DNA of 27,003 nt from a virus. The stretch lies in IMG/VR virus record IMGVR_UViG_3300027659_000176, positions 1 to 27,003 of that record; one strand, written 5' to 3'. The first letter of the stretch is position 1. Each line of letters opens with the position of its first letter. The notes under the pieces were generated by a model that saw only the letters and a list, made by a program, of their open reading frames with translations, made no database searches and had not been told where the DNA came from. The position numbers and the translations under genes are program-made. Below are positions 1,518 through 19,835 of the stretch, one piece after another.

Positions 1518-2477
1518 ATGAGTACAGATGCAAAAGAAACCGAGTTGGAATATCGGGAAGACAAGGACGGTGGCGTCATTATCACTATGCCGGCCGATGA
1601 GGTTGAGGATGACGATGACGAGCCGGTAAGTGCCGCGGCAGGTGGATCACAAGAGGCAGACGACGATGCGGATGACGAAAGCGCTGATGGCGACTACGAC
1701 AGTCCGATTCGGGAGGCACGCCGTGCCCGTCGAAAGGCCAAAAAAGAGTACATCAAGAAGACCAATGTAGAGAAAGACCAGCGCCTGCAGATGCTTGACC
1801 GCGAGAATGCGGCCATGAAGGAGCGCCTAGCTGTCCTAGAGCGCAAGGCCCAGGGCACTGACTTAGCTCAGATTGACCGGGCTATCGACGACGAGGAGAG
1901 GCGCCTACAGTGGGCTCAGAAGAAGCGGGAAGAGGCCATTAGTAACTCTGACGGGGCACTAAGCGTCCAGGCTGAGGACGCGGTCTACGAGGCCCGGCAG
2001 AAGGTTGAGCAGCTTAGGCACCTAAAGCAACGGGCAATGCAGGCCGCTCAGGAGGCGCCAGCTTACGATCCTCGGATCAAGCGGCACTCTGACGCCTGGT
2101 TAGCGGAGAACGACTGGTACGACTCTGGCCTCAAGGACGAGGACAGCAAGATTGCCAAGGTTGTGGATTCTACGCTTCACGAGGAAGGTTGGGACCCTGC
2201 TATGCCGGACTATTGGCAAGAATTCAATAGACGGTTGCATAAAAAATTGCCTCACCGTTATACTGATTCTGATGACGAAAGATCAAGTAGGCGTCCTCGG
2301 AGTGTTGTGACTGGATCTGGGCGGGAGACGATGTCAGAAGGTGGCAGAGTTAACGTCACAATTGAGCCAGAAAAGATACGGGCAATGAAAGATGCAGGAT
2401 TGTGGGAGAACAAAGCTCTCCGCACGAAGATGCTGCAACGCTATGCCCGTGAATCACGCAAATACCCAAGGAGCTAA
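1518..2477 (+). CDS. Scaffold-like head-assembly protein
   Basis: A 319-residue hydrophilic protein. The N-terminal 60 residues are very acidic, with runs of D and E around 28-34 and 48-60. Residues about 65-180 are strongly charged and helical (coiled coil likely). The C-terminal part has a W-L-A-E-N-D-W-Y-D segment near 194-202, a later L-P-H-R-Y, and a basic end. An acidic start, coiled coil and basic capsid-binding end, encoded between portal and capsid genes, is the usual profile of an internal scaffolding protein that guides procapsid assembly and is then lost. No protease motif is visible. A strong ribosome site (AAGGAGG, 1508-1514) fixes the start. The call rests on position and composition plus resemblance to podovirus scaffold proteins. 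Confidence 0.7.
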   Translation: MSTDAKETELEYREDKDGGVIITMPADEVEDDDDEPVSAAAGGSQEADDDADDESADGDYDSPIREARRARRKAKKEYIKKTNVEKDQRLQMLDRENAAMKERLAVLERKAQGTDLAQIDRAIDDEERRLQWAQKKREEAISNSDGALSVQAEDAVYEARQKVEQLRHLKQRAMQAAQEAPAYDPRIKRHSDAWLAENDWYDSGLKDEDSKIAKVVDSTLHEEGWDPAMPDYWQEFNRRLHKKLPHRYTDSDDERSSRRPRSVVTGSGRETMSEGGRVNVTIEPEKIRAMKDAGLWENKALRTKMLQRYARESRKYPRS

Positions 2478-2479
2478 CT

Positions 2480-3016
2480 ATGGACGGACGTTTAAAGAAA
2501 TCATTGAAGTCAGGTGGCCGTGAAGATCGCGCAAGCGAGGACACTAAAAGGGCGTCATCTGAAGAGAAGTTTGTGTCAACGCAGGAACGTCGGAAGATGT
2601 GGAGCGATGAATGGACACAGAGTGCGCTGCCCAATGCCCCGGAATTGCCGGGATGGCACGTTTGCTGGTTATCGACAACCAATGGCTATGACAGTATCGA
2701 TAAGCGGGTTCGACTTGGCTATGTACCTGTGAAAGCAGAAGAGATAGACGGGTTTGAAAATCACCGCGTAAAGGCTGGAGAGCATATTGGCTATATTGCG
2801 TGCAACGAGATGTTGTTGTTCAAGATCCCTGAAGACATTTATCAGGAGATCATGACTCACTTCCACCATGATCAGCCAATGGAAGAGGCTAATAAGATCA
2901 AGGTGCAGGCTGAATCTCAGGTTGGACGTGATAGTTCGGGTCGCAAGCTCGGACAAGTCGAAGGCGAAGGCTTGGGCAATATTGATAAGCCGCTTTCTGC
3001 TCCGGTATTTGCCTGA
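2480..3016 (+). CDS. Conserved hypothetical protein in the capsid operon, 178 aa
   Basis: A 178-residue soluble protein with a basic N-terminus (K-K-S-L-K-S-G-G-R near residues 6-14) and a central folded part with W-H-V-C-W-L-S-T-T-N (58-67), R-L-G-Y-V-P-V and Y-I-A-C-N-E-M-L-L-F-K-I-P. A polar tail ends it. No known domain or catalytic motif was recognised. It sits between the scaffold and the head structural genes, and its AAGGAG ribosome site overlaps the scaffold stop codon, so it belongs to the same transcript. A role in head assembly is inferred from this position only; an extra scaffold component or head-completion factor are both possible. Confidence 0.7.
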   Translation: MDGRLKKSLKSGGREDRASEDTKRASSEEKFVSTQERRKMWSDEWTQSALPNAPELPGWHVCWLSTTNGYDSIDKRVRLGYVPVKAEEIDGFENHRVKAGEHIGYIACNEMLLFKIPEDIYQEIMTHFHHDQPMEEANKIKVQAESQVGRDSSGRKLGQVEGEGLGNIDKPLSAPVFA

Positions 3017-3046
3017 GCGTAAGCATTAAACCATTTAGGAGCTAAT

Positions 3047-3646
3047 ATGAGTACTATTGCTGCTCCGTTTGGCATGCGCCCCGCTTTCCATCCATCCGGT
3101 TTGGACCGCGCTGTTGCACTTGCTGACGGCATTCAAGCTGTTTCCACTTCTGGAAACGTATCCCTCGGCTACGCCGCGAACATTTTCAAGGGTGCGCCCG
3201 TGAAGATGAACACTGCTGGCTGGATTGAAAATAGTTCTGGTAGCGAGGCCATTCAAGGCGCGTTTGCTGGTGTTGAGTGGACTGATTCGACAGGTCGTCG
3301 TCGCATCTCCCCGTTCTGGCCTGCTAACGAATCGTTCCAGACAGGTTCTTTGGTTGCGTACTACTACAGCGACCCGAACATTGTGTATGAGATGCAGTCT
3401 GCTGGCTCACTCGCGCAAAATTCGGTCGGTGATCAGTATGACATTACCAATCCAACTACTGGTTCGACTACTACTGGCCTGTCCTCCGCTTCCCTGGGAA
3501 CGACCCCTGCCGGTTCTGGTTCAACTAACGTGATGCGTGTCATCAACTTGGCCCCCTATCCAGATAACGCCTGGGGTGATTCCTATACGATCGTTCAAGT
3601 ACAGATTGCTCTCAGTCAGTACGTTGCATCGATTAACGCTATCTAA
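3047..3646 (+). CDS. Head structural protein, probable decoration protein
   Basis: A 199-residue beta-rich protein that starts with A-A-P-F-G-M-R-P-A-F-H-P-S-G near residues 5-18. I associate that opening with structural proteins encoded beside the capsid gene in many aquatic podovirus-like phages. Other marks are F-A-G-V-E-W-T-D-S-T-G-R-R-R (73-86), Y-Y-Y-S-D-P-N near 104-110, and a Ser/Thr/Gly-rich stretch before the C-terminus. No membrane segment or enzyme motif is seen. It has a clear TAGGAG ribosome site and lies directly upstream of the major capsid gene. A capsid decoration or stabilising protein is the best reading; it could instead be a second shell protein. Confidence 0.65.
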   Translation: MSTIAAPFGMRPAFHPSGLDRAVALADGIQAVSTSGNVSLGYAANIFKGAPVKMNTAGWIENSSGSEAIQGAFAGVEWTDSTGRRRISPFWPANESFQTGSLVAYYYSDPNIVYEMQSAGSLAQNSVGDQYDITNPTTGSTTTGLSSASLGTTPAGSGSTNVMRVINLAPYPDNAWGDSYTIVQVQIALSQYVASINAI

Positions 3647-3661
3647 AGGAGGGACTGAATT

Positions 3662-4576
3662 ATGGCAGCCCCGATGAGAAGTACAGACTTCCGCAGTATC
3701 GTTGAACCAATCATGAACGAATGCTTTGACGGCGTTTATGATCAACGTACTGACGAATGGTCCCGCGTTTTCCGTGAGCAAGACGGTATCCCACGTAACT
3801 ACCACGAAGAGCCAGTTCTTTATGGTTTTGGTCTCGCCCCACAACTGCCAGACGGTACTCCGGTAACGTATCAGCAGGGCGGCGTGCTCTTCCTGCAGCG
3901 CTATGTTTACAACGTGTATGGCCTGGCCTTCGCGTTGACCAAAGTGCTGGTGGAAGACGGCGACCACATCCGTATCGGCTCGGTCTATGCTCGTCACCTC
4001 GCTCAGTCCTTGATTGAAACCAAGGAAACCCTGTGCGCGAACGTGCTGAACCGTGCATTTAACTCGGCCTACCCAGGCGGTGACGGTGTGTCGCTGAGCA
4101 ATGCTTCGCACCCAATCGCTAACGGCACCTTCAGCAACCTGCTGACGACCGCTGCTAACCTGTCCCAGACCTCGCTTGAGCAGATGCTCATCCAGATCCG
4201 TCAGGCTGTTGACAACAACCAGAAGAAAATCCGTCTGGTCCCACGTCAACTGGTGGTTGCCCCAGGCAACGTGTTCCAGGCTGAAGTTCTGCTGAAGTCG
4301 GTCCTGCGTTCCGGTAATGCAAACAACGACATCAACCCAGTCAAATCAATTGGCTTGCTTGATGAAGGTGCTGCAGTGCTGTCGCGTTTGACCAATTCGA
4401 GCGCCTGGTGGGTTCAGACCGATGCTCCAGAAGGCACTAAGCTTCTGATGCGTCGTCGCCTTGAAAAGACGATGGAAGGTGATTTTGAGACCGACACCAT
4501 GCGTTACAAGGCAACTGAGCGTTATCAGGTGGGTTGGACTGACCCACGTACTTTGTACGGTACGCCTGGTATCTAA
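3662..4576 (+). CDS. Major capsid protein
   Basis: A 304-residue protein in the expected place after scaffold and head genes. Its content fits a HK97-fold coat protein: an N-terminal helix region, an E-loop-like segment with Q-G-G-V-L-F-L-Q-R-Y (71-80), and the long helix of A-R-H-L-A-Q-S-L-I-E-T-K-E. It ends in an R-Y-Q-V-G-W-T-D-P-R segment near residue 290, which I recognise from coat proteins of this phage type. It has the best ribosome site in the head region (AAAGGAGG, 3645-3652) and codon use unlike its neighbours: many C-ending Asn, Asp and Ile codons plus CGT and CTG, as expected for a very highly expressed gene. A Rho-independent terminator follows at once. The fold is inferred from family resemblance and context. 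Confidence 0.85.
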   Translation: MAAPMRSTDFRSIVEPIMNECFDGVYDQRTDEWSRVFREQDGIPRNYHEEPVLYGFGLAPQLPDGTPVTYQQGGVLFLQRYVYNVYGLAFALTKVLVEDGDHIRIGSVYARHLAQSLIETKETLCANVLNRAFNSAYPGGDGVSLSNASHPIANGTFSNLLTTAANLSQTSLEQMLIQIRQAVDNNQKKIRLVPRQLVVAPGNVFQAEVLLKSVLRSGNANNDINPVKSIGLLDEGAAVLSRLTNSSAWWVQTDAPEGTKLLMRRRLEKTMEGDFETDTMRYKATERYQVGWTDPRTLYGTPGI

Positions 4577-4584
4577 GTAATTCG

Positions 4585-4610
4585 GGCCGGGGAAACTCGG
4601 CCTTTTTCTT
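4585..4610 (+). terminator. Rho-independent terminator after the capsid gene
   Basis: A hairpin with arms GGCCG (4585-4589) and CGGCC (4598-4602) around an 8-base loop that could close one more G-T pair is followed by TTTTT (4603-4607) and CTT. It starts 8 bases after the capsid stop codon, so it should end or weaken the head transcript there. Confidence 0.8.
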
Positions 4611-4642
4611 AACATTCGCTGAGCTTTTCAAGGAGACACGCG

Positions 4643-5575
4643 ATGGCTTTAACAAATTTCCCTAACGGGATCACTTCTTTCGGCGTTCCAGTTACTGGTC
4701 CTGCCCCTATTTCTGTTCCTAATGGTAACGGCAAGGTTATTTATGTTGACGCGACAGGCCAAGTTGGCGCCCCTGGCTCAAGTGTAGAGATTGTTTCTAC
4801 AACGATCCAAGCGGCAATTGACGCCTGTACGTCTGGCGCTGGCGACACAATTCTTGTGTTCCCTGGCTCCTACAACGAAAATCTAGTCATTAGCGGCGTT
4901 GATTATCTGACGATTATTGGTTGCCAAGTAGGCGGCTATGAGCGCCCTGACGTTGGTGATGCGACGGGCACTGCCCTGACCATTACTGAGTCGCAAGGCG
5001 TAGTCATTCGCAACATGCGTTTCTACAATGAGGACAACAGCGATGTTGCGATCACTGATAGTAACGGCGGTGTGTTTGATAATTGCGTCTTTGACGGCAA
5101 TGCAGCAATGACGGCAAACAAGGCATGCTTGGCATTCCAAGTGAATGCAACGGATGATTCTTATACGGCGTCTGAGAACGTTGTGCAGAACAGCCTAATC
5201 CGCGGATCTGCTGCAATTGGTATGCGTTTCCAAGCTGCTGCTGCTCCGATTGGTGTTGGCACGACGCACAATGTGGTTGCTAATAATCGTTTTATTGGCA
5301 TTACTGGCGCTGACATTAAGTCTGTAACGGCTACCTCGGCGACTTATACGTTCCAAACGACGCAAGTCTCTGGCAATCAGTTTATGGACTTTAATAAAGC
5401 TTTGTATTTGAAACTTGACGCTCAAGTTGAGGATAATGGTCTTATTTCGGGTAACTTCTTTGCTAGTGACACGGCATTGGCTATAACGTCAATTGACCTG
5501 AGCGGTACTTCTATTGCGTTTGCGGGTAATTTTGCTTCGGCAGGTATTGTTGACGGCACCGGCTTCAACGCCTAA
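4643..5575 (+). CDS. Right-handed beta-helix structural protein (head-fibre or decoration candidate)
   Basis: A 310-residue protein that begins M-A-L-T-N-F-P-N-G-I-T-S-F-G-V-P-V, an opening I associate with virion proteins of related phages. Then comes an I-Q-A-A-I-D-A-C segment near 56-63 and irregular short beta turns typical of pectin-lyase-like right-handed helices (V-V-I-R-N-M-R-F-Y-N, V-F-D-N-C-V-F-D-G-N, V-V-A-N-N-R-F-I-G, V-S-G-N-Q-F-M-D-F-N). Catalytic residues of polysaccharide lyases could not be identified, so a structural role is preferred over an enzyme. It follows the capsid terminator with its own AAGGAG ribosome site (4630-4635). Position suggests a head-surface fibre; a tailspike-like depolymerase is less likely. 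Confidence 0.65.
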   Translation: MALTNFPNGITSFGVPVTGPAPISVPNGNGKVIYVDATGQVGAPGSSVEIVSTTIQAAIDACTSGAGDTILVFPGSYNENLVISGVDYLTIIGCQVGGYERPDVGDATGTALTITESQGVVIRNMRFYNEDNSDVAITDSNGGVFDNCVFDGNAAMTANKACLAFQVNATDDSYTASENVVQNSLIRGSAAIGMRFQAAAAPIGVGTTHNVVANNRFIGITGADIKSVTATSATYTFQTTQVSGNQFMDFNKALYLKLDAQVEDNGLISGNFFASDTALAITSIDLSGTSIAFAGNFASAGIVDGTGFNA

Positions 5576-5585
5576 GGAGTAGACC

Positions 5586-6329
5586 ATGCCCCAGTTCGAT
5601 GATGATTTGTTCCTCGGGACTGCGGTTACTGAGATGGGGATGTCGCTTGGCGACCCCTCCCCTATGTCAGCAGGTGTTGGGCCGCTTGGCCGGATCTATG
5701 TATGGGATACAGTCCCGGCCGCGGCGGTTATCAACAACCTGGCAACTGCACAAACCCCTGCGGGTGCTGGTGCGATAACTTTAACTGCGGGTACAAGTGT
5801 CACGCTGTTTCGTGTCACTAACTTTCAGAATGGTTATCGGCTAGATGTCCCGCGTGCTGTAAGTGTTAGTACTGGGTCAGGTACGCCGACCTCACGTATC
5901 TTCACCGTTGTTGGCTTTGACATTTATGGCCAGGCTATGACGGAGACGATTACATCGAGCGCGGTTGCCTCAACTACGGTAAACGGCAAGAAGGCCTTTT
6001 CTGTTATTACGGGCGTTACGGTAAGCGGCGGCACTGTCGTTGCGATTACTGTAGGCACGTCTGACGTAATTGGCATTCCTGTGCGTGTCTCTAACGCTGG
6101 CTATGTTGGCAGCGTAAAGTGGGATAACACATTAGCCGCGGATACCGGTACTTTTGTCGCCGCCGATAGCACAACTGCAACAGCAGCCACTGGCGATGTT
6201 CGGGGGACTTATGACCCCTCGTCAGCCTGTGACGGCACCAAGCGCCTTGTAATGGGCGTCTTGTTGTCTGCAATCGCAGTTGGCCCCAATGCAACGCGTG
6301 CTGGCGCCCTTGGCGTCACTCAAGCCTAA
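5586..6329 (+). CDS. Beta-rich virion structural protein, 247 aa
   Basis: A 247-residue protein rich in V, T, A and G with the segments G-R-I-Y-V-W-D-T-V-P near residue 36, F-D-I-Y-G-Q-A-M-T-E-T-I-T near 117, and a C-terminal G-D-V-R-G-T-Y-D-P-S-S-A. The pattern is all beta with no enzyme motif or membrane segment. I associate it with structural proteins found beside the capsid gene in similar phages, but no function is known to me. It follows the beta-helix gene by 10 bases with an AAGGAG ribosome site, so the two are co-expressed. Likely a head decoration or fibre component. Confidence 0.6.
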   Translation: MPQFDDDLFLGTAVTEMGMSLGDPSPMSAGVGPLGRIYVWDTVPAAAVINNLATAQTPAGAGAITLTAGTSVTLFRVTNFQNGYRLDVPRAVSVSTGSGTPTSRIFTVVGFDIYGQAMTETITSSAVASTTVNGKKAFSVITGVTVSGGTVVAITVGTSDVIGIPVRVSNAGYVGSVKWDNTLAADTGTFVAADSTTATAATGDVRGTYDPSSACDGTKRLVMGVLLSAIAVGPNATRAGALGVTQA

Positions 6330-6341
6330 TAGGAGATGGAA

Positions 6342-7403
6342 ATGGGTCAATTTAAACCAATGGTCAAGATGATGACCACGGAGCCTACCGTTGAGCTCAA
6401 GCTCAAAAAAGGTGGTTCAGTAGAGAAGAAGATGCAAATGGGCGGGACTCCTTCTGTGGATGCTCCGCGTATGCCTACCCGTGGCGGCATGCCTTCTGGC
6501 GCTGCTATGCCAGGTACGGCGCCGATGAAGCCGTCAATGGCGGCTCGTCGTCGTGCGATGATGGCTCGACCAGGCGGTGCTGCTCCTGCGGCTCCAATCG
6601 GCCGTGCTGCTGCTATGATGAAAAAAGGTGGCGAGGCGCATGAAGATGCAGCTCAAGACCGCGCAATGATCAAAAAGGCGATGTCCGGTAAGAAGTTTGC
6701 TACTGGCGGCGTCGTGATGGGTCAAGGCGGCTATGCTACCGGCGGCATCATCAAGTCCGAAATGGGCAAAAGTAAGATAACGACGGCTCACCCTGATAAT
6801 TCCCCTGCAAAAACAGGTGAAGTGAAGATGGGCAACGGCGGTGGTTATAAGCACGGTGGCGGCGTAAAGATGTACGCTAAGGGTGGCGGCGTTAACGGTA
6901 ACGTTAGCACGACCCCTCCTGGCGTAAGCGGTACTACAACTGGTAGCGTCAAAAAAGGTAATGCTGGCGGCTACAAGACTGGTGGTGCAGCAAAAAAGTT
7001 TGCTGACGGTGGGGCTGTCCAGAGCGATGGTCGTGCCGTCAAGATGCCACAAGGTAATAAGCGCCCTTCGGCGCCTGTAAGCATTAACCAACTGTCCGGT
7101 ACCTTTAAAAAGGGCGGCAGTGTTAAGAAGTTTTCTACAGGCGGCTTAGGCGAAACTGAGAAGCGCTTGCTTCGTGAGGCTCAAGAGGAAAAGCTAGATC
7201 GTAAGGGTCGTGAGGCGTTTGAGAATGTGCCAAAGGTCCAGAAGGAACTCGACGAGGCAATGAATCCTATGAGCATGATGAAGGAAATGGCCGGTAAAGT
7301 TAAGAAGTTGTTTACCGGCTCTGAGGTGCCTAAGGGTTCTGTTACCAAGACTGAGAAGTCAGTAACGGTTGCCCCAGGCAAAAAGCGTGGCGGTGCTTGC
7401 TAA
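6342..7403 (+). CDS. Highly basic Gly/Lys/Met-rich repeat protein
   Basis: Two ATGs compete. The one at 6336 touches the AGGAG (6331-6335); the one at 6342 has a proper 6-base spacing and is chosen, giving 353 residues. The protein is low in complexity and strongly basic. About ten copies of a short motif are spread along it, of the form aromatic or K, A or K or S, any residue, Gly-Gly: K-K-F-A-T-G-G (6690-6710), Y-A-T-G-G, Y-A-K-G-G-G, K-K-F-A-D-G-G, F-K-K-G-G, K-K-F-S-T-G-G, Y-K-T-G-G. The last third is a charged helix (R-L-L-R-E-A-Q-E-E-K), ending K-K-R-G-G-A-C. No known domain is recognised. Such a basic protein in a head operon could bind packaged DNA or the inner capsid wall; that is inference. 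Confidence 0.6.
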   Translation: MGQFKPMVKMMTTEPTVELKLKKGGSVEKKMQMGGTPSVDAPRMPTRGGMPSGAAMPGTAPMKPSMAARRRAMMARPGGAAPAAPIGRAAAMMKKGGEAHEDAAQDRAMIKKAMSGKKFATGGVVMGQGGYATGGIIKSEMGKSKITTAHPDNSPAKTGEVKMGNGGGYKHGGGVKMYAKGGGVNGNVSTTPPGVSGTTTGSVKKGNAGGYKTGGAAKKFADGGAVQSDGRAVKMPQGNKRPSAPVSINQLSGTFKKGGSVKKFSTGGLGETEKRLLREAQEEKLDRKGREAFENVPKVQKELDEAMNPMSMMKEMAGKVKKLFTGSEVPKGSVTKTEKSVTVAPGKKRGGAC

Positions 7404-7407
7404 ATAA

Positions 7408-7432
7408 GGTGGGGGCTTCGGCCCCTACTTTT
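7408..7432 (+). terminator. Rho-independent terminator with UUCG tetraloop
   Basis: The stem GGTGGGGGC (7408-7416) pairs with GCCCCTACT (7421-7429), including two G-T pairs, around TTCG. That makes the very stable C(UUCG)G loop. The run TTTT (7429-7432) follows. It lies just after the stop codon of the basic repeat protein. Confidence 0.85.
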
Positions 7433-7446
7433 AATTGGAGATTTCA

Positions 7447-7728
7447 ATGTCAACATTGACAAATGTATTTGCAGAACACGCTGATGCTACGGGTACTATT
7501 TATGCCGGGGCAGCAAACCTTGCCGGGTATCAACTTGCTTCTGGCGGCACTGCTGGCGAGATTGTTTTCCGTGATGGTGGATCAGGCGGGACAGAGCGTT
7601 TGCGAGTAAATATCACAGTTAATACTGCTGTAATCTCAACGTTAATCCCCGGTAATGGAATTCGATTCACAACTAACATTCATGTCACGCTACCAGCTAG
7701 TGCGGCTGTTACTATTTTCTGTGGCTGA
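7447..7728 (+). CDS. Small beta-rich structural protein, 93 aa
   Basis: The ATG at 7447 has a ribosome site (TTGGAG, 7435-7440) and gives a 93-residue protein; a TTG in frame further upstream is rejected because it lies within that site. The product contains G-E-I-V-F-R-D-G-G-S-G-G-T-E-R near residues 37-51 and ends in a strand-like V-T-L-P-A-S-A-A-V-T-I-F segment. That is the profile of small beta proteins seen in virion modules of similar phages. No function is known. It starts 15 bases after the second terminator, and no promoter was seen between them. Confidence 0.6.
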   Translation: MSTLTNVFAEHADATGTIYAGAANLAGYQLASGGTAGEIVFRDGGSGGTERLRVNITVNTAVISTLIPGNGIRFTTNIHVTLPASAAVTIFCG

Positions 7729-7730
7729 TC

Positions 7731-8279
7731 ATGCCAGCCAAATCTAAATCACAGTTCCGGTTAATGCAGGCTGTTGCGCATAACCCTAAGATTGCGAAGA
7801 AGGTTGGCATCCCAGCCTCTACTGCCGCTGAGTACGTTCAATCTAACGTGGGTAAGAAGGCCTACAGCAAGCTTCCAGAGGCTAAGGCTGCTGATGGCGG
7901 CTTGTACGCAAATATCCACGCCAAGAGGCAGAGAATCGCTGAGGGTTCTCACGAAAAGATGCGCAAGCCTGGCTCTGAGGGCGCCCCGACGGCTGGTGCG
8001 TTCAGGGAATCTGCTAAGACTGCGAAGATGGCTAAGGGTGGCGTTAGTTTAGCTGTTGGCCGTGGCGAGAAGATGCCTGTTGAGCGCGGCGCTGGCTTAA
8101 CGCAAAAAGGCCGTGAAAAGTATAACCGCGAGACCGGCTCTGAGCTCAAGGCTCCGCAACCAGAGGGTGGGAAGCGCAGAGATTCATTCTGCGCGAGAAT
8201 GGGTGCAGTAGCGGAAAAGAGTGAAAAAGGTAGTAGGTCCCGAGCTTCGATGAAGCGTTGGAATTGCCCAGGCTGGTGA
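7731..8279 (+). CDS. Basic protein resembling DUF6321, with N-terminal phage-type domain
   Basis: A 182-residue basic protein in two parts. Residues 1-50 (S-K-S-Q-F-R-L-M-Q-A-V-A-H-N-P) look like a small helical domain common in phage proteins. Residues 57-182 resemble DUF6321: G-L-Y-A-N-I-H-A-K-R (57-66), K-M-R-K-P-G-S-E-G-A-P-T (76-87), G-L-T-Q-K-G-R-E-K-Y-N-R (122-133), S-F-C-A-R-M (152-157) and R-W-N-C (176-179). An inserted K-M-A-K-G-G near residue 100 matches the Gly-Gly motif of the protein at 6342. Two cysteines (154, 179) lie in the most conserved spots and could bind metal. The function is unknown. There is no clear ribosome site; the start follows the previous stop by 2 bases, so coupling is likely. 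Confidence 0.6.
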   Translation: MPAKSKSQFRLMQAVAHNPKIAKKVGIPASTAAEYVQSNVGKKAYSKLPEAKAADGGLYANIHAKRQRIAEGSHEKMRKPGSEGAPTAGAFRESAKTAKMAKGGVSLAVGRGEKMPVERGAGLTQKGREKYNRETGSELKAPQPEGGKRRDSFCARMGAVAEKSEKGSRSRASMKRWNCPGW

Positions 8280-8286
8280 GGAACCA

Positions 8287-8583
8287 ATGAAAAATATGAA
8301 AAAGATGGCTGATGGTGGATTGACCGACATGGGCCCAGACATGGGCGCTAACGCGGCTACGGGTATCGATAAGATATCTGAGGGTGCGCAGGCGCTTGGC
8401 TCGTCTCTCAACCAGATCAACCAGGCTGTGGGAACGTCTACGCCGGGCTTTCAGGCCATGACCACCTTATCTCCATCCCCTGCCGGTAGCTTAGGCCGTC
8501 AGCTCGGGTACAAGAAGGGCGGTAGCATCAAATCAAAGGCAAGCACGGGCGAGTCTCGCTCGAAAAAATCACCTGGATGGTAA
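8287..8583 (+). CDS. Small basic hypothetical protein with Lys-Gly-Gly motifs, 98 aa
   Basis: A 98-residue protein with K-K-M-A-D-G-G at residues 5-11 and Y-K-K-G-G-S-I-K-S-K near 75-84. Between them is a low-complexity polar helix (residues 27-50, G-I-D-K-I-S-E-G-A-Q-A-L) and a Pro/Ser-rich stretch. It ends K-K-S-P-G-W, and the protein encoded just upstream also ends C-P-G-W. The ribosome site GAGGA (8278-8282) suits the ATG. No domain is recognised. Sharing the Gly-Gly motif with the genes at 6342 and 7731 suggests that the three act at the same place in the virion. Confidence 0.55.
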   Translation: MKNMKKMADGGLTDMGPDMGANAATGIDKISEGAQALGSSLNQINQAVGTSTPGFQAMTTLSPSPAGSLGRQLGYKKGGSIKSKASTGESRSKKSPGW

Positions 8584-13638: not shown

Positions 13639-15006
13639 ATGGCATTAGTCCTCAAAGACCGAGTTAAGACCACGACCACGACAACTGGTACGGGTACAGT
13701 TACGCTTGGCTCCGCAGCGGCTGGTTATCAGAGTTTCTCTGTCATTGGCGACGGTCAGCAAACCTACTACATCATTACCGACGGAACTAACTGGGAAACC
13801 GGTATTGGTACGTACACGGCTTCTGGCACTACTCTCTCACGTACACAAGTCTTTGAGTCTAGCAATAACGATGCCTTAGTTAATTTTGCTGCTGGCACTA
13901 AGGATGTGATTGTAGGCTATCCATCAACGGCTACAGCAGGGGGTGTGCCTAACTGTGATAACAGCAGCATAGGTACTGATCTATCAGGCTGGTCTGCGTT
14001 TCAGGCTGCGCTACAGAGTGGTGTAACAGGCGGTACGCTGTTTGGGAATAATAGTACTAATGGCATTGTAAGTACGTATTCGTTGGTTTACGCTTTAATA
14101 GGGGCATATTCTGGTGGTATTTTGGCACCTAACGGAGACATTCATTTTTCTCCAAATCTTGCAGCAAGAGGACAAAAAGTAAATTGTTTTACTGGAGTTG
14201 TTAGTACATATTCTTTGGTCTACACAAGAACAAATGCTTATAAAGGCGGTGTTTTAGCGCCTAACGGTGATATACATTTTATTGTTTTTACTGGTAATAG
14301 AGGTCAAAAAATATCTTCTTCTGGCGTTGTTAGTACATACTCTTTAGTTTACACGGCAGCAGAAGCTTATGCAGGTGGAGTTATTGCCCCTAATGGAGAT
14401 ATTCATTTTATTCCATCAAGAGCAAATGTAGGCCAAAAAATATCAGCCGCTGGAGTAGTCTCTACGTATAGTTTAGTTTACACAGTTACTAATGCTTATT
14501 ATGGTGGAGTTCTTGCGCCTAACGGTGATATACACTTTGTTCCTTATAGTGCAGCTAGAGGACAGAAAATATCAGCCGCAGGTGTTGTATCTACTTACTC
14601 TCTTATTTATACAATAAATGAATCTTATGATGGTGGAGTATTAGCGCCAAATGGGGATATACATTTTGTTCCTAGAAATGCTCCTGTAGGGCAAAAAATA
14701 TCCCCTGCTGGCGTTGTATCAACATATAGCTTAGTTTATACAGATAATAATGCTTATTCTGGTGGCGTATTAGCTCCTAACGGCGACATCCACTTTATCT
14801 CTCAACGCGGAGTAGGGCAAAAAGTATCAGTTACTGGCGTAGTTTCAACCTATTCATATCTCAATTCTGATTTTAGTGGTGGCGTACTTGCTCCAGACGG
14901 GACTATTTATTTTGTTTCCAATGCTATAGGCCAAAAAATCTCCACGAATCCCGGTCAGCCATTAGGCCTCGGCGTATGTCTGAGTTCATTCCTTAATAAA
15001 TTCTAA
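13639..15006 (+). CDS. Seven-repeat beta-propeller fibre protein, copy 1
   Basis: A 455-residue protein in three parts. Residues 1-141 form a fibre head domain (R-V-K-T-T-T-T-T-T-G-T-G near 8-19, G-I-G-T-Y-T-A-S-G-T-T-L-S-R near 55-68). Residues 142-437 hold seven repeats of 44, 43, 43, 43, 43, 42 and 38 residues. The last 18 residues end L-S-S-F-L-N-K-F. Each repeat carries V-V-S-T-Y-S-L, G-G-V-L-A-P-N-G-D-I-H-F and G-Q-K at fixed places, the length and pattern of a propeller blade. Seven blades should close one disc. The last repeat is shortest and reads T-I-Y-F instead of D-I-H-F, as closing blades often differ. No ribosome site is obvious; the ATG is 3 bases after the previous stop. A receptor-binding role is inferred. 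Confidence 0.75.
   Translation: MALVLKDRVKTTTTTTGTGTVTLGSAAAGYQSFSVIGDGQQTYYIITDGTNWETGIGTYTASGTTLSRTQVFESSNNDALVNFAAGTKDVIVGYPSTATAGGVPNCDNSSIGTDLSGWSAFQAALQSGVTGGTLFGNNSTNGIVSTYSLVYALIGAYSGGILAPNGDIHFSPNLAARGQKVNCFTGVVSTYSLVYTRTNAYKGGVLAPNGDIHFIVFTGNRGQKISSSGVVSTYSLVYTAAEAYAGGVIAPNGDIHFIPSRANVGQKISAAGVVSTYSLVYTVTNAYYGGVLAPNGDIHFVPYSAARGQKISAAGVVSTYSLIYTINESYDGGVLAPNGDIHFVPRNAPVGQKISPAGVVSTYSLVYTDNNAYSGGVLAPNGDIHFISQRGVGQKVSVTGVVSTYSYLNSDFSGGVLAPDGTIYFVSNAIGQKISTNPGQPLGLGVCLSSFLNKF
14062..14949 (+). repeat. Seven tandem blade repeats of about 129 bases, copy 1
   Basis: In-frame repeats of 132, 129, 129, 129, 129, 126 and 114 bases. Protein is well conserved while third positions vary widely. 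The block is visibly richer in A and T than the 5' part of the same gene. It opens with ATTGTAAGTACGTATTCG (14065-14082) and closes on TAGGCCAAAAAATCTCCAC (14927-14945). Confidence 0.9.
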
Positions 15007-15008
15007 TT

Positions 15009-16400
15009 ATGACATTCGTTATCCGTGATCGCATATTAGTAACCAGCACCACTACAGGCACAGGTACGTTTACACTTGGCGCGGCTACTGCTGGCTATCA
15101 GGACTTCTCTAGCATAGGTGACGGTAACACTACTTACTACACGATCACTAACGGTACTGATTGGGAAGTAGGCATTGGCACGTATGCTACTAGCGGCACG
15201 ACATTAGCCCGTACACAGGTCTTATCATCAAGTAACAGCAATGCGTTGGTCAACTGGTCAGCAGGGTCTAAGAACGTCTATGTGCCACAGCCAGCTATCA
15301 ATACACAAGGCACAGCGCCTACAGGTGACAACTCGTCTATCGGTACAGATCAGGTAGCGTTTAACAATTTCCAGAAGAACATACAGGCTAGTGTAAACGG
15401 TGGTGTGACGTTTAATAACAATGGCGTGGCGGGGATTGTAAGTACGTATTCGCTGATTAATTCAGGCGGAGGTCAATATATTGGCGGCGTTCTTGCTCCC
15501 AACGGCGATATTCACTTTATTCCTTTTAGCGCGGTTAGAGGGCAAAAAATAAATACAAATACTGGTGTTGTATCTACGTATTCTTTAGTTTATACAGACG
15601 CTGGTACTTCAACATTTAGCGGCGGCGTTCTTGCTTCTAACGGGGACATTCATTTTGTTCCTTCTTATGCTGACAGAGGACAAAAAATAAATGCCTCTGG
15701 AGTTGTTAGTACATATTCTTTAATAATAACTGGTTATTTTGAAAGTTATAGAGGCGGTGTTTTAGCCCCTAATGGTGACGTACATTTTATTCCTTATAAT
15801 GCAACTAAAGGACAAAAAGTATCGGCGGCAGGGGTTGTTAGTACCTATTCTCTTGTAAACACAGCAGGTACATATTACGGCGGTGTTTTAGCACCTAATG
15901 GAGATATTCATTTTATTATAAATGGTGCATCAGTAGGTCAGAAAATATCAGCGGCAGGAGTAGTTTCTACGTATAGTTTAGTTTATACAACTGGCAATGC
16001 TTATTTTGGTGGAGTACTAGCTCCAAATGGGGACATACATTTTGTGCCTTATGAAGCAAATAGAGGCCAGAAAATATCATCATCTGGCGTTGTTTCTACT
16101 TATTCTTTGGCTTATACAACTACTGGTGCATATTACGGCGGGGTGTTAGCACCTAACGGCGACATACATTTTGTGAATGCAAATGCAACTGTTGGACAAA
16201 AAATATCTTCTGTTGGAGTAGTGTCTACTTATTCATTAATCAGAACAGTTGGCGGTGCATATTACGGCGGTGTTTTAGCGCCTAATGGTGATATATATTT
16301 TGTCAGTGTTAGTGCTGGCGTAGGCCAAAAAATCTCCACCTGCCCTGCTATACCATTTGGCTTAGATACCTGCCTCAGTTCATACCTAAATAAGTTTTAA
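15009..16400 (+). CDS. Seven-repeat beta-propeller fibre protein, copy 2
   Basis: A 463-residue paralogue of the preceding gene with the same plan. The head domain is 141 residues (S-T-T-T-G-T-G-T-F-T-L-G near 13-24). Seven repeats of 44, 45, 44, 42, 43, 43 and 43 residues follow (142-445), then 18 residues ending L-S-S-Y-L-N-K-F. Blade lengths vary most at the first loop, after S-T-Y-S-L: repeats 2 and 3 have one or two extra residues there. The last blade again has D-I-Y-F-V-S in place of D-I-H-F. The start lies 2 bases after the previous stop with no clear ribosome site, so expression should be coupled to copy 1. Whether the three copies form one mixed fibre or separate ones cannot be told. 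Confidence 0.75.
   Translation: MTFVIRDRILVTSTTTGTGTFTLGAATAGYQDFSSIGDGNTTYYTITNGTDWEVGIGTYATSGTTLARTQVLSSSNSNALVNWSAGSKNVYVPQPAINTQGTAPTGDNSSIGTDQVAFNNFQKNIQASVNGGVTFNNNGVAGIVSTYSLINSGGGQYIGGVLAPNGDIHFIPFSAVRGQKINTNTGVVSTYSLVYTDAGTSTFSGGVLASNGDIHFVPSYADRGQKINASGVVSTYSLIITGYFESYRGGVLAPNGDVHFIPYNATKGQKVSAAGVVSTYSLVNTAGTYYGGVLAPNGDIHFIINGASVGQKISAAGVVSTYSLVYTTGNAYFGGVLAPNGDIHFVPYEANRGQKISSSGVVSTYSLAYTTTGAYYGGVLAPNGDIHFVNANATVGQKISSVGVVSTYSLIRTVGGAYYGGVLAPNGDIYFVSVSAGVGQKISTCPAIPFGLDTCLSSYLNKF
15432..16343 (+). repeat. Seven tandem blade repeats, copy 2
   Basis: In-frame repeats of 132, 135, 132, 126, 129, 129 and 129 bases. The opening ATTGTAAGTACGTATTCG (15435-15452) is identical to copy 1, and the closing TAGGCCAAAAAATCTCCAC (16321-16339) is identical in all three copies. 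Confidence 0.9.
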
Positions 16401-16408
16401 GGATCATC

Positions 16409-17791
16409 ATGGCGTATGTCGTTAAAGACCGAGTAAAAGTAACCAGCACGACGACAGGTACGGGAACCTTTACGCTTGGCGCTGCGGTAGCTGGCTTTCA
16501 AGACTTTACTAACATAGGTAACGGCAACGATACGTATTACTGCATCACTGACGCTACGAGCTTTGAGGTGGGCATTGGTACGTTTACGCTGTCTGGTACG
16601 ACGCTATCGCGCACCACGGTGCTTGAATCAAGTAACAGCGATGCTCTTGTTAACTTTGCTGCTGGCACTAAGACTGTATTCGTTACATTCCCATCAGAGA
16701 ACACGCTAGGCACTGTGCCAACGGCTGACAATAGCTCAGTAGGTACTGACTTAGTAGCGTGGCTGAACTTAAAGAAGCAGCTAGATGCAGGTGTAGTGAA
16801 TGGTGTGCCGTATGCTAACAATGGAACTAATGGGATTGTTAGTACGTACTCGCTGGTTTATACAGTAGGGATTGCTTATGTTGGAGGTGTACTAGCACCA
16901 AATACAGATATCCACTTTATTCCGTCTTCGGCAGCAGTAGGCCAAAAAGTATCTGCTGCTGGAGTTGTATCTACATATTCTTTAGTTTATACAAGTGCGC
17001 AAGCATATAATGGTGGTGTTTTGGCTCCAAATGGAGATATTCATTTTGTTCCTTACAGGCCTACAGTAGGGCAAAAAATAAATTCTTCTGGAGTCGTTAG
17101 TACATATTCCCTTGTATATACAGTTACAAATGCTTATATTGGGGGTGTATTAGCCCCTAACGGGGATGTACATTTTGTCCCCCAAAGTGCCGTTGTAGGT
17201 CAAAAAGTATCTGCTGCCGGTGTTGTTTCTACCTATTCTTTAGTTTATACCGCAGCAACTGCTTATGCTGGTGGCGTTCTTGCACCTAATGGGGACATTC
17301 ATTTTGTTCCAGCAAGTGCTAATAGGGGTCAAAAAATATCGGCGGCGGGTGTTGTTAGTACCTATTCTTTAGTTTATACAACAACTGCCGCTTATAGGGG
17401 AGGTGTTTTAGCACCTAACGGCGATATTCATTTTATTCCATTCCAATCTTCTCTTGGACAAAAAGTAAATTCTTCAGGTGTTGTATCCACCTATTCATTA
17501 GTTTATACAGGATTACAAGCATATCAAGGAGGTGTTTTAGCTCCTAACGGGGATATACATTTCGTTCCTAGTATTGCAAATGTAGGTCAAAAAATATCAG
17601 CCGCAGGTGTGGTTTCCACATATTCTTTAGTTTATACCGGCGGAGGAAATGCAACTTTTCAAGGTGGAATTTTAACTAATGATGGAAGTATTTATTTTAT
17701 TCCATCAAATGCCGCAGTAGGCCAAAAAATCTCCACAAACGTACAGCAAAAAGTAGGTTATGCTTTAAGCCCGTTTTTTAATAAATTCTAA
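16409..17791 (+). CDS. Seven-repeat beta-propeller fibre protein, copy 3
   Basis: A 460-residue third paralogue. The head domain is again exactly 141 residues. Six repeats of 43 residues and a last one of 45 follow (142-444), then 16 residues ending L-S-P-F-F-N-K-F. This is the most regular copy. Its first blade has N-T-D-I-H-F where others have N-G-D-I-H-F, and its last has T-N-D-G-S-I-Y-F. It has a modest ribosome site (AAGGA, 16399-16403), unlike copies 1 and 2. The gene is followed directly by the glycosyltransferase-methyltransferase gene, whose AAGGAG site overlaps its stop. A host-recognition fibre is the most likely role. Confidence 0.75.
   Translation: MAYVVKDRVKVTSTTTGTGTFTLGAAVAGFQDFTNIGNGNDTYYCITDATSFEVGIGTFTLSGTTLSRTTVLESSNSDALVNFAAGTKTVFVTFPSENTLGTVPTADNSSVGTDLVAWLNLKKQLDAGVVNGVPYANNGTNGIVSTYSLVYTVGIAYVGGVLAPNTDIHFIPSSAAVGQKVSAAGVVSTYSLVYTSAQAYNGGVLAPNGDIHFVPYRPTVGQKINSSGVVSTYSLVYTVTNAYIGGVLAPNGDVHFVPQSAVVGQKVSAAGVVSTYSLVYTAATAYAGGVLAPNGDIHFVPASANRGQKISAAGVVSTYSLVYTTTAAYRGGVLAPNGDIHFIPFQSSLGQKVNSSGVVSTYSLVYTGLQAYQGGVLAPNGDIHFVPSIANVGQKISAAGVVSTYSLVYTGGGNATFQGGILTNDGSIYFIPSNAAVGQKISTNVQQKVGYALSPFFNKF
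16832..17740 (+). repeat. Seven tandem blade repeats, copy 3
   Basis: Six repeats of 129 bases and one of 135. The opening differs from copies 1 and 2 by two bases (ATTGTTAGTACGTACTCG, 16835-16852); the closing 19 bases (17718-17736) are identical to them. Confidence 0.9.
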
Positions 17792-17800
17792 GGAGAACTC

Positions 17801-19147
17801 GTGTACAACAGAGACAAAATCATTGCCACGATGCAGGAAATTTACGACGAATCAAAGACCATCGCACCTTACGTCTTAATCGCACAACCACGTCGCAACT
17901 TAGAAGAAACCGCAGCACAGAATTTTGATGGATATGATGGACTGCACATTGACCTGATGGGCTTCTCCCACGGCTTTGTGCATATCGGCGGCGAGAAAGT
18001 AGACGTTGCCCGTAACTATCTTATAGAACAAGCACTGACCTCTGGTGCTAAATATATGCTGTTTATCGGCGAAGACACCGTTCTCCCCTATGACGGATTT
18101 AAGGTCTTGCATGAGACAGCAGAAAAGAACCCAGACGCAGTGGTAACAGGTGTGTACTACATCAAATGCTCTGACGCTATGATTATGGTACGCAATCAGG
18201 ATTGGATCACCATTCCTAACGTCGATCCTGGTCAATTGATTGAAGCATGGCAGACCGGCATGGATGTGATGATGATTCCTATCCACGTTCTGCAAGCCAT
18301 GAAAGACGAGGCTCCTGACCTGCCGTTTACCTGCATCGGCAACAACATCAACGACGAGATTCCGTTCATTGGTGAAGACAACTTTTTCGTCCACCGTCTG
18401 CATAAGCGCGGCACAAAGTTGCTAGTTAATACTGACGTGCAATGTCTGCATATGGATTTAGCAAGTGGACTGTATACGGCGCATCCTTCTGTAGACCTGA
18501 AGAACTACTACACGAACATCAAGCCTACTAGACCCCTGACGCTGGATGACAAAGAGTTTATTGACCGTCGTTGGGCTGATCGTCTGCCTGAAGGTACTGG
18601 CAGCTATAAGTCTGTTATCGCCAAGCTGCTAGAAGAAGGCCAGCCCATCAAGTTCAACATGGGTTGTGGTCGTGACCGTATTGATGGCTACCTTGGTGTG
18701 GATATGCACAGCGATACCGCAGACATCAAGCAAGACATCATGAAGCTGGACTTGCCAGAACATTGCGCTGACGAGATATTCGCCAGCCATGTGATTGAAC
18801 ATATTCCACAGCATCGCGCTCCTAGCGTCCTAGAGAAGTGGCTTGCCACGTTGAAAGAGGGCGGTATGCTTGTTTTAGAGACTCCTGACCTTGCTGGTTT
18901 GTGTAAGGACTACCTTGAGCAAGATGGTGCAGATCAGCATATGACTGCTATGTGTATCTATGGCGCTCACGTAGACCGTATTACTCCTGAGACACAAGAG
19001 AAGGGTGCTTTATCTCCGCACCTGTGGGGTTACACGCCTAAGTCGCTGGCTGACCTGTGTACAGCGGTAGGTTTTAAAGACATCAAGATTCTGCCGGTAA
19101 CGGGTCAGCATCCGGGTAAGAACTTTAGATTGGAGGCGGTAAAATGA
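17801..19147 (+). CDS. Glycosyltransferase-methyltransferase fusion protein
   Basis: A 448-residue protein with a GTG start behind AAGGAG (17790-17795). Residues about 20-225 look like a GT-A fold sugar transferase: D-V-A-R-N-Y-L near 68-74, F-I-G-E-D at 88-92 in the place of the metal- and sugar-nucleotide-binding acidic motif, T-G-V-Y-Y at 116-120, and a second G-E-D at 191-193. Residues about 270-448 are a class I SAM-dependent methyltransferase: N-M-G-C-G at 286-290 (motif I), G-V-D at 299-301, A-S-H-V-I-E-H-I at 328-335, and G-G-M-L-V-L-E-T-P-D at 354-363. The order suggests adding a sugar and methylating it, or two modifications of one target. Coming right after the fibre genes, it may modify fibres; a role on host surface sugars or DNA is also possible. 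Substrates are unknown. Confidence 0.75.
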   Translation: MYNRDKIIATMQEIYDESKTIAPYVLIAQPRRNLEETAAQNFDGYDGLHIDLMGFSHGFVHIGGEKVDVARNYLIEQALTSGAKYMLFIGEDTVLPYDGFKVLHETAEKNPDAVVTGVYYIKCSDAMIMVRNQDWITIPNVDPGQLIEAWQTGMDVMMIPIHVLQAMKDEAPDLPFTCIGNNINDEIPFIGEDNFFVHRLHKRGTKLLVNTDVQCLHMDLASGLYTAHPSVDLKNYYTNIKPTRPLTLDDKEFIDRRWADRLPEGTGSYKSVIAKLLEEGQPIKFNMGCGRDRIDGYLGVDMHSDTADIKQDIMKLDLPEHCADEIFASHVIEHIPQHRAPSVLEKWLATLKEGGMLVLETPDLAGLCKDYLEQDGADQHMTAMCIYGAHVDRITPETQEKGALSPHLWGYTPKSLADLCTAVGFKDIKILPVTGQHPGKNFRLEAVK

Positions 19148-19566
19148 TTTCCTTAGAAGGTTTGCAATCTGGCGTAACAGGTGAAGACCGCGCTATCGCT
19201 ATTTTGAAGGTTGAGCATAACAGTCAGACGTATGATTGGATGACGTTTGTGCCACCTGACGCTGATTTGGCTACTTATATTGCCGCCTCAGAGGGGCGTG
19301 TTAAGGCTGAGATTGACGCAAAAGAAGCTGTTTGGGCTGCTTTAAATCCTAAGACGCGCGAGATTGAGGGCATTAACGGTACTGAGACTGTCGCTATTGA
19401 TAAGTCTGAGATAGTACGTGCTGATAATCCTGATTACTATGCGAGTCGTCGTGCTGAGTATCCTGCGCTTGCGGATCAGTTGGATGCAATGTGGAAGGGC
19501 GCTGATGCTATGGCAGAAATGGCGGCTAAGATTGCGGCGGTTAAGGCAAAGTATCCTAAACCATGA
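19144..19566 (+). CDS. Probable tail-fibre-associated (assembly) protein, 140 aa
   Basis: A 140-residue helical, charged protein overlapping the fusion enzyme gene by ATGA. Its C-terminal part has R-R-A-E-Y-P-A-L-A-D-Q-L-D-A-M-W-K-G (about 102-119), a motif I know from phage proteins encoded after tail fibres, and it ends V-K-A-K-Y-P-K-P. The N-terminal half (I-A-I-L-K-V-E-H-N) looks like a small beta domain. No enzyme motif or membrane segment is seen. A chaperone for fibre folding or attachment is the likely role, inferred from motif and position. It overlaps the next gene by ATGA. Confidence 0.6.
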   Translation: MISLEGLQSGVTGEDRAIAILKVEHNSQTYDWMTFVPPDADLATYIAASEGRVKAEIDAKEAVWAALNPKTREIEGINGTETVAIDKSEIVRADNPDYYASRRAEYPALADQLDAMWKGADAMAEMAAKIAAVKAKYPKP

Positions 19567-19835
19567 GTTATACGCTATCCAAAACGGATGCAAATAAAAT
19601 TGTTAGGATAGATCAGGGAGGGGTAGTTACTCTCCCTGGTAGCGTGTTCTCTAAGGGGGATGCGATAATATTATTTAACAATACGGATGAATTTATCTCT
19701 ATTCATTCGCTAGTGGAAAACTCTTATCGCTCTTCTCGTGCAAAGAAAAGAGCATTTATAGAGTTTCCTCCTAGATCATTAGCAAATGCTGTTTTTATTG
19801 ACGACAATATTGTAGTTATATCAGTGGGGTTCTAA
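19563..19835 (+). CDS. Stand-alone fibre-type beta domain, 90 aa
   Basis: The 90 residues align along their whole length with the C-terminal 90 residues of the fibre-like protein at 12871-13635. Shared marks are S-Y-x-L, G-D-A-I-I at residues 32-36, F-N-N-T at 38-41, and A-N with a downstream F near 73-78. The copy here is more divergent and more basic (S-R-A-K-K-R-A in the middle). It starts by ATGA overlap with the preceding gene, with no separate ribosome site. It may be a fibre cap or an independently folding domain split from, or duplicated out of, the fibre. Function is not established. Confidence 0.55.
   Translation: MSYTLSKTDANKIVRIDQGGVVTLPGSVFSKGDAIILFNNTDEFISIHSLVENSYRSSRAKKRAFIEFPPRSLANAVFIDDNIVVISVGF

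Follow-up and report, generated by a model that had tools for sequence, protein, structure and literature searches.

The window analysed here, 27,003 bases in length, covers a complete IMG/VR virus record. Its structural genes run from the portal end (8-760) through genes for GroES (1071), a scaffold-like acidic protein (1518) and the capsid protein (3662; Phage_capsid_4) to those for a beta-helix protein (4643), a head-region protein (5586) and four further products, p6336, p7435, p7731 and p8287. These are followed by an SU10-type adaptor (8593) and then by the tail genes. The GroES co-chaperonin gene (1071-1508) lies within the head module; such a gene is also annotated in phages RW, CRP-901 and HTVC023P. 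Sequence searches of the PDB with the capsid protein and with p7731 returned nothing useful. Metagenomes were found to be rich in relatives of 49-60 kb, and three of the four bacterial-genome contigs bearing p6336 come from betaproteobacterial bins, a hint at the host.

The tail end of the window has features of its own. Three consecutive paralogous tandem-repeat proteins (VSTYSLVYT..AYxGGVLAPNGDIHF) occupy positions 13639-17791 and are probably tail-associated. Near the matching place in the relative G002, RCC1-like repeats (YTWGxNxxGQLGLGNTT) are found, which suggests cassette exchange. Behind the tail genes lies a methyltransferase/glycosyltransferase-like gene (17801-19147), and its counterpart in G002 (31639-38750; L236/L237) comprises a sulfotransferase and several sugar-nucleotide-type genes.

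A short motif ending in Gly-Gly recurs in p6336, p7731 and p8287 (Table 1). The start of p6336 was read as the ATG at 6342 rather than the in-frame ATG at 6336 because its homologues begin MGQFKPM. The initial annotation had counted about ten motifs in this product. Twelve matches to [FYM]xxGG were found where 1.13 are expected (p < 0.0005 in 2000 composition-preserving shuffles), and eight of them fit the stricter form [FYM][AK]xGG. The single copy claimed for p7731 and the two claimed for p8287 were all located. The three carriers are otherwise unrelated, as had been stated: no Pfam family scores above its curated cut-off with p6336 or p8287, and p7731 carries DUF6321.

Table 1. Motif-bearing genes of the window and the features of their products (strict, fits [FYM][AK]xGG)
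Feature	Position	Strand	Description
p6336	6342..7403	+	353 aa; basic repeat protein (net charge +34), predicted mostly disordered; 12 [FYM]xxGG
N-terminal segment MGQFKPMVKMMTTEPTVELKLKKGG	6342..6416	+	p6336; conserved, many invariant positions in 51 homologues
MQMGG	6432..6446	+	p6336
MKKGG	6618..6632	+	p6336; strict
FATGG	6696..6710	+	p6336; strict
MGQGG	6717..6731	+	p6336
YATGG	6732..6746	+	p6336; strict; only F/Y exchange in 51 homologues
MGNGG	6828..6842	+	p6336; poorly conserved
Doublet YKHGG...YAKGG	6846..6887	+	p6336; 9-residue spacing
Doublet YKTGG...FADGG	6972..7013	+	p6336; 9-residue spacing; only F or Y at both aromatic positions
Doublet FKKGG...FSTGG	7104..7145	+	p6336; 9-residue spacing
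C-terminal helical segment	7152..7316	+	p6336 residues 271-325; only long part predicted confidently (AlphaFold)
p7731	7731..8279	+	basic (net charge +22) composite: N-terminal helical module, central module (phrog_16028), C-terminal DUF6321
MAKGG	8028..8042	+	p7731; low-confidence linker between central module and DUF6321; both Gly invariant among 49 homologues
p8287	8287..8583	+	98 aa; one motif near each end
MADGG	8305..8319	+	p8287
YKKGG	8509..8523	+	p8287; C-terminal tail YKKGGSIKSK..KSPGW

In p6336, which is predicted to be mostly disordered, no positions are better conserved than the motif Gly-Gly pairs. AlphaFold gave a low-confidence model with pLDDT below 50 at 208 of the 353 residues; such disorder, together with the strong positive charge, is what would be expected of a basic DNA-condensing core protein. 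Among 155 distinct complete homologues, the number of motifs per protein ranges from 4 to 14. An alignment of 51 homologues has shown little or no variation in the N-terminal MGQFKPMVKMMTTEPxVELKLKKGG and in many of the motif Gly-Gly pairs. Column identity in the disordered part is 90% for motif Gly-Gly, 61% for other Gly and 57% for the remaining columns, figures to be read as upper estimates since MAFFT may favour the alignment of Gly-Gly pairs. The key position at residues 131, 169, 211, 220 and 255 is Tyr or Phe wherever a homologue has a residue there (two have gaps at 169), and such an F/Y exchange is hard to produce by alignment bias. Matches of p6336 to the Pfam families Loricrin and DUF680 fall below the cut-off and reflect Gly/Lys composition. 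Duplication at the DNA level was rejected as the source of the motifs; repeats inside the gene are few and only 60-77% alike. A tblastn search with p6336 against isolate phages found nothing, with the low-complexity filter as the probable cause; inspection of the locus in the Manatee Spring phage (MW202545) revealed the positional homologue.

The copies in the two smaller proteins are marginal when taken alone. One [FYM]xxGG against 0.17 expected was found in p7731 (p = 0.16) and two against 0.18 in p8287 (p = 0.01), each from 2000 shuffles, and the rest of the window, p6336 aside, has three strict motifs where 0.98 would be expected (P = 0.067). Within the window, therefore, only p6336 is beyond doubt, and the other copies are rescued because they are conserved in relatives. 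For instance, both Gly of KMAKGG are invariant in 49 aligned p7731 homologues, in a linker predicted to be disordered within a model of low confidence. The C-terminus of p7731 matches DUF6321 (PF19846; 52.8 bits against a curated cut-off of 28.5), a domain known from proteins of cyanophages and pelagiphages. Matches to p7731 were found in 190 phage records, none covering 80% of it; the freshwater group typically has a longer protein, made of three modules and bearing the motif in the last of its linkers. Both p7731 and p8287 end in [S/C]-P-G-W, and small proteins at the position of p8287 in relatives combine a common KKGG...W tail with unrelated N-terminal parts.

Is the motif more than a product of composition? 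The frequency of the motif was examined across 17 large metagenomic relatives (almost completely fetched), MW202545 and the window, with open reading frames called mechanically and clustered, and with expectations obtained by shuffling each protein. Outside the p6336 family, which was excluded, [FYM][AK]xGG was counted 126 times where 31.5 are predicted (z 15.7), in a sample whose members are akin to one another and against shuffles that keep composition, not local low complexity. The motif is thus more frequent than composition predicts. When one protein per family is counted, the figures are 57.5 against 12, and for the extended form (Lys or Arg before the motif, or Val at +2) 28.3 against 1.4. 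The controls stay near expectation: 25 against 31 for the reversed motif, 88 against 75 for a [VIL] swap and 278 against 302 for a single-Gly form, with a [DE] version also near expectation. Overlapping variants are raised too ([FYM]x[AK]GG 2.8-fold, [AK][FYM]xGG 1.8-fold). Furthermore, positions that played no part in the search show the same preferences as p6336, Val at +2 being enriched 5.9-fold (p 1e-19) and Lys before the motif 2.9-fold; Lys inside the motif is enriched 4.2-fold, as in p6336. Motif doublets number 11 against 0.5 expected. The flat controls and the flank test meet most of the concern over local low complexity. At least one motif is present in 44 families against about 26 expected by chance, so a single match in any given family is uncertain. 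On these sequence patterns, [Phe/Tyr/Met]-[Ala/Lys]-x-Gly-Gly-x-Val is probably a docking tag held in common rather than low-complexity noise.

The motif is concentrated in one part of the genome. Genes were assigned according to whether conserved late or conserved early genes lie near them; on this division, the late (virion) module held 115 motifs against 25.5 expected and the remainder 3 against 4.7. The capsid protein, terminase and early genes of the sampled genomes showed no excess. The carriers include very large proteins, among them one with an ART-PolyVal domain (PF18760, E 9e-11), one PcfJ-like and one GP88 protein, and a giant protein ending in DDIPAMLADGEFVFPADVV that adjoins a DNA ejection protein and an SLT internal virion protein. 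Two of 18 portals and two of 18 scaffolds also carry it, as do p7731, p8287 and further small proteins with a KKGG..W tail. The motif is thus not confined to the three neighbouring proteins of the initial annotation. Most copies lie in linkers and tails, and the proteins outside the p6336 family that would be its clients carry one to four each. Some of these copies flank the ART region of the protein at G011 2135-6598. Tandem repeats of about 24 residues containing the motif (MAEGGAVDYESRFNEMLQKHLG; MAKGGSVDIDAADARLEAAMAQR) were seen at 2135-6598 (L270) and in G006 at 54329-55717 (L243), in large proteins where they occupy linkers or lie close to the C-terminus. Only 9 of the 126 motifs fall within the first 40 residues, and 25 fall within the last 40 (13 expected). 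Forms with Asp or Glu inside, such as MADGG and MAEGG, are common.

Other phages indicate that the motif belongs to a lineage. The capsid protein of Caulobacter phage RW is 77% identical to that of the window, yet RW has no p6336, no p7731 and no motif excess (3 against 1.4); the structural core can therefore work without the motif, which is lineage-specific. At the place taken by p6336 and head genes in the freshwater relatives, RW encodes a 501-residue endonuclease-like protein (18153-19658; L250), which directly follows its capsid gene. Roseobacter phage CRP-901 and Pelagibacter phage HTVC023P have capsid proteins 42% and 41% identical and a GroES gene in the head module, as in the window. 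No match to p6336 was found in RW and its relatives, CRP-901 or HTVC023P, and the motif is not significantly above expectation in CRP-901, Pag-Yong1, DSL-LC05, S-RIP1, T7, HTVC010P or lambda. HTVC023P has five motifs against 1.7 expected, three of them in Gly runs. Phage DSL-LC04 has eight against 1.7, located in PcfJ-like, DNA-transfer-region and tape-measure proteins and in two small proteins. Since none of its proteins holds many copies, a hub of the p6336 type is not needed everywhere. The idea that the motif marks tape measures in general, which came from two copies in lambda gpH, was dropped; late-region matches in HK97, P2, P22 and Mu are few and none is in a tape measure.

Short signals that direct proteins into phage heads have been described. 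In the capsid-targeting sequences of T4 IPIII and P1 DarB, a short segment suffices for head packaging and injection, the P1 example, DarB, being a polyvalent protein (PMC9024508). The T4 and P1 signals are single N-terminal segments (the first 30 residues in DarB) linked to cleavage after Glu, whereas the present motif is internal or C-terminal, often multiple, rarely near the N-terminus and not tied to such cleavage. Polyvalent proteins of phages have been predicted to be packaged (Iyer et al. 2017, PMC5512222). Several carriers in the relatives belong to this class, their ART-PolyVal and PcfJ-like domains scoring above the Pfam cut-off, and LPD, ART, MPTase or PcfJ-type domains occur only in these carriers and not in p6336, p7731 or p8287. 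A term search of that paper found no Gly-Gly motif in the text searched. Literature searches on DUF6321 and on short linear motifs in phage ejection proteins found nothing on the motif.

One disordered protein with about ten copies, together with many unrelated late proteins that hold few copies in linkers and tails, fits the docking of clients to a hub. The suggestion of one common binding partner is, as an inference, well supported, with the extended motif found in dozens of unrelated families and in the late module only. DNA, the capsid wall and a protease had been named as candidate partners. Binding to DNA, by which p6336 and its relatives would compact the packaged genome or impose order on it, with other carriers attaching to the DNA through the motif, is plausible for p6336 in view of its charge (+34; +22 for p7731), and Lys is enriched inside and before the motif. 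It leaves unexplained, however, why the motif occurs in large proteins of no marked basicity and commonly contains Asp or Glu, and the conserved residues are the aromatic or Met and the Gly rather than Lys. As a general account, DNA binding is improbable. A protease partner would make the motif a processing site, where a phage or host enzyme cuts after Gly-Gly to release domains of the large proteins and to trim p6336. Adenovirus-type sites have the form hydrophobic-x-Gly-Gly in core proteins and precursors, including the substrate Met-Arg-Gly-Gly (PMC4246237), and copies lie between domains, both around the ART region in G011 and between the modules of p7731. Those sites differ from the present case, where the cognate protease was not found, copies per protein are many and Val is conserved at +2. 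S78 prohead protease and C39 searches of the 17 genomes gave no match while their controls worked, a C48 search was silent as was its control, and when 29 late proteins from one genome were compared with Pfam, only lysozyme and SLT cell-wall enzymes and no peptidase came up. The annotation of P22 gp7 as trimmed by a host protease indicates that a phage enzyme would not be required, and a host protease may act here. Nevertheless, cleavage leaves the Val at +2 and the Lys flanks unexplained, and with no maturation protease of the families tested we consider a processing site rather unlikely.

The motif may also have no partner, serving as a flexible linker in which Gly-Gly gives bending and Lys solubility and which duplication and recombination have carried from one late gene to another. 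Its position in disordered linkers and tails, the variable copy number in p6336, the 24-residue tandem repeats in some carriers and the DNA repeats of 60-77% identity in the p6336 gene are all in keeping with this. A linker would not account for the demand for Phe, Tyr or Met, the F/Y-only exchange at five sites or the Val at +2, and it sits poorly with the flat [VIL] and reversed controls and the restriction to the late module. This explanation is rather unlikely on balance, and it carries a caution for docking, as most copies lie in linkers, where Gly-rich sequence is common.

The reading preferred here, held with less than even confidence, is that purifying selection maintains (K)-[F/Y/M]-[A/K]-x-G-G-x-V as a true short linear motif, which would mark proteins entering or leaving the virion interior in abundant freshwater tailed phages, with p6336 as a multivalent hub. 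The aromatic or Met residues and the Gly-Gly pairs would act as 'stickers' of this disordered basic protein, and its Lys-rich spacers could serve to hold DNA or the acidic scaffold as well. The hub would thereby collect client proteins with one to few copies into the procapsid. A broader proposal, which we offer tentatively and as doubtful, is a phage-wide 'packaging code' in which one sticker motif recruits unrelated cargo to the disordered hub. Procapsid loading would then resemble a scaffold-client or condensate system and would be distinct from the N-terminal signals of T4 and P1. The choice of proteins that are loaded into the head and injected is known for very few phage systems. A motif found in dozens of late-gene families would give a direct and testable sequence predictor of virion cargo in this very common uncultured freshwater group, and it may find use as a small tag to load foreign proteins.
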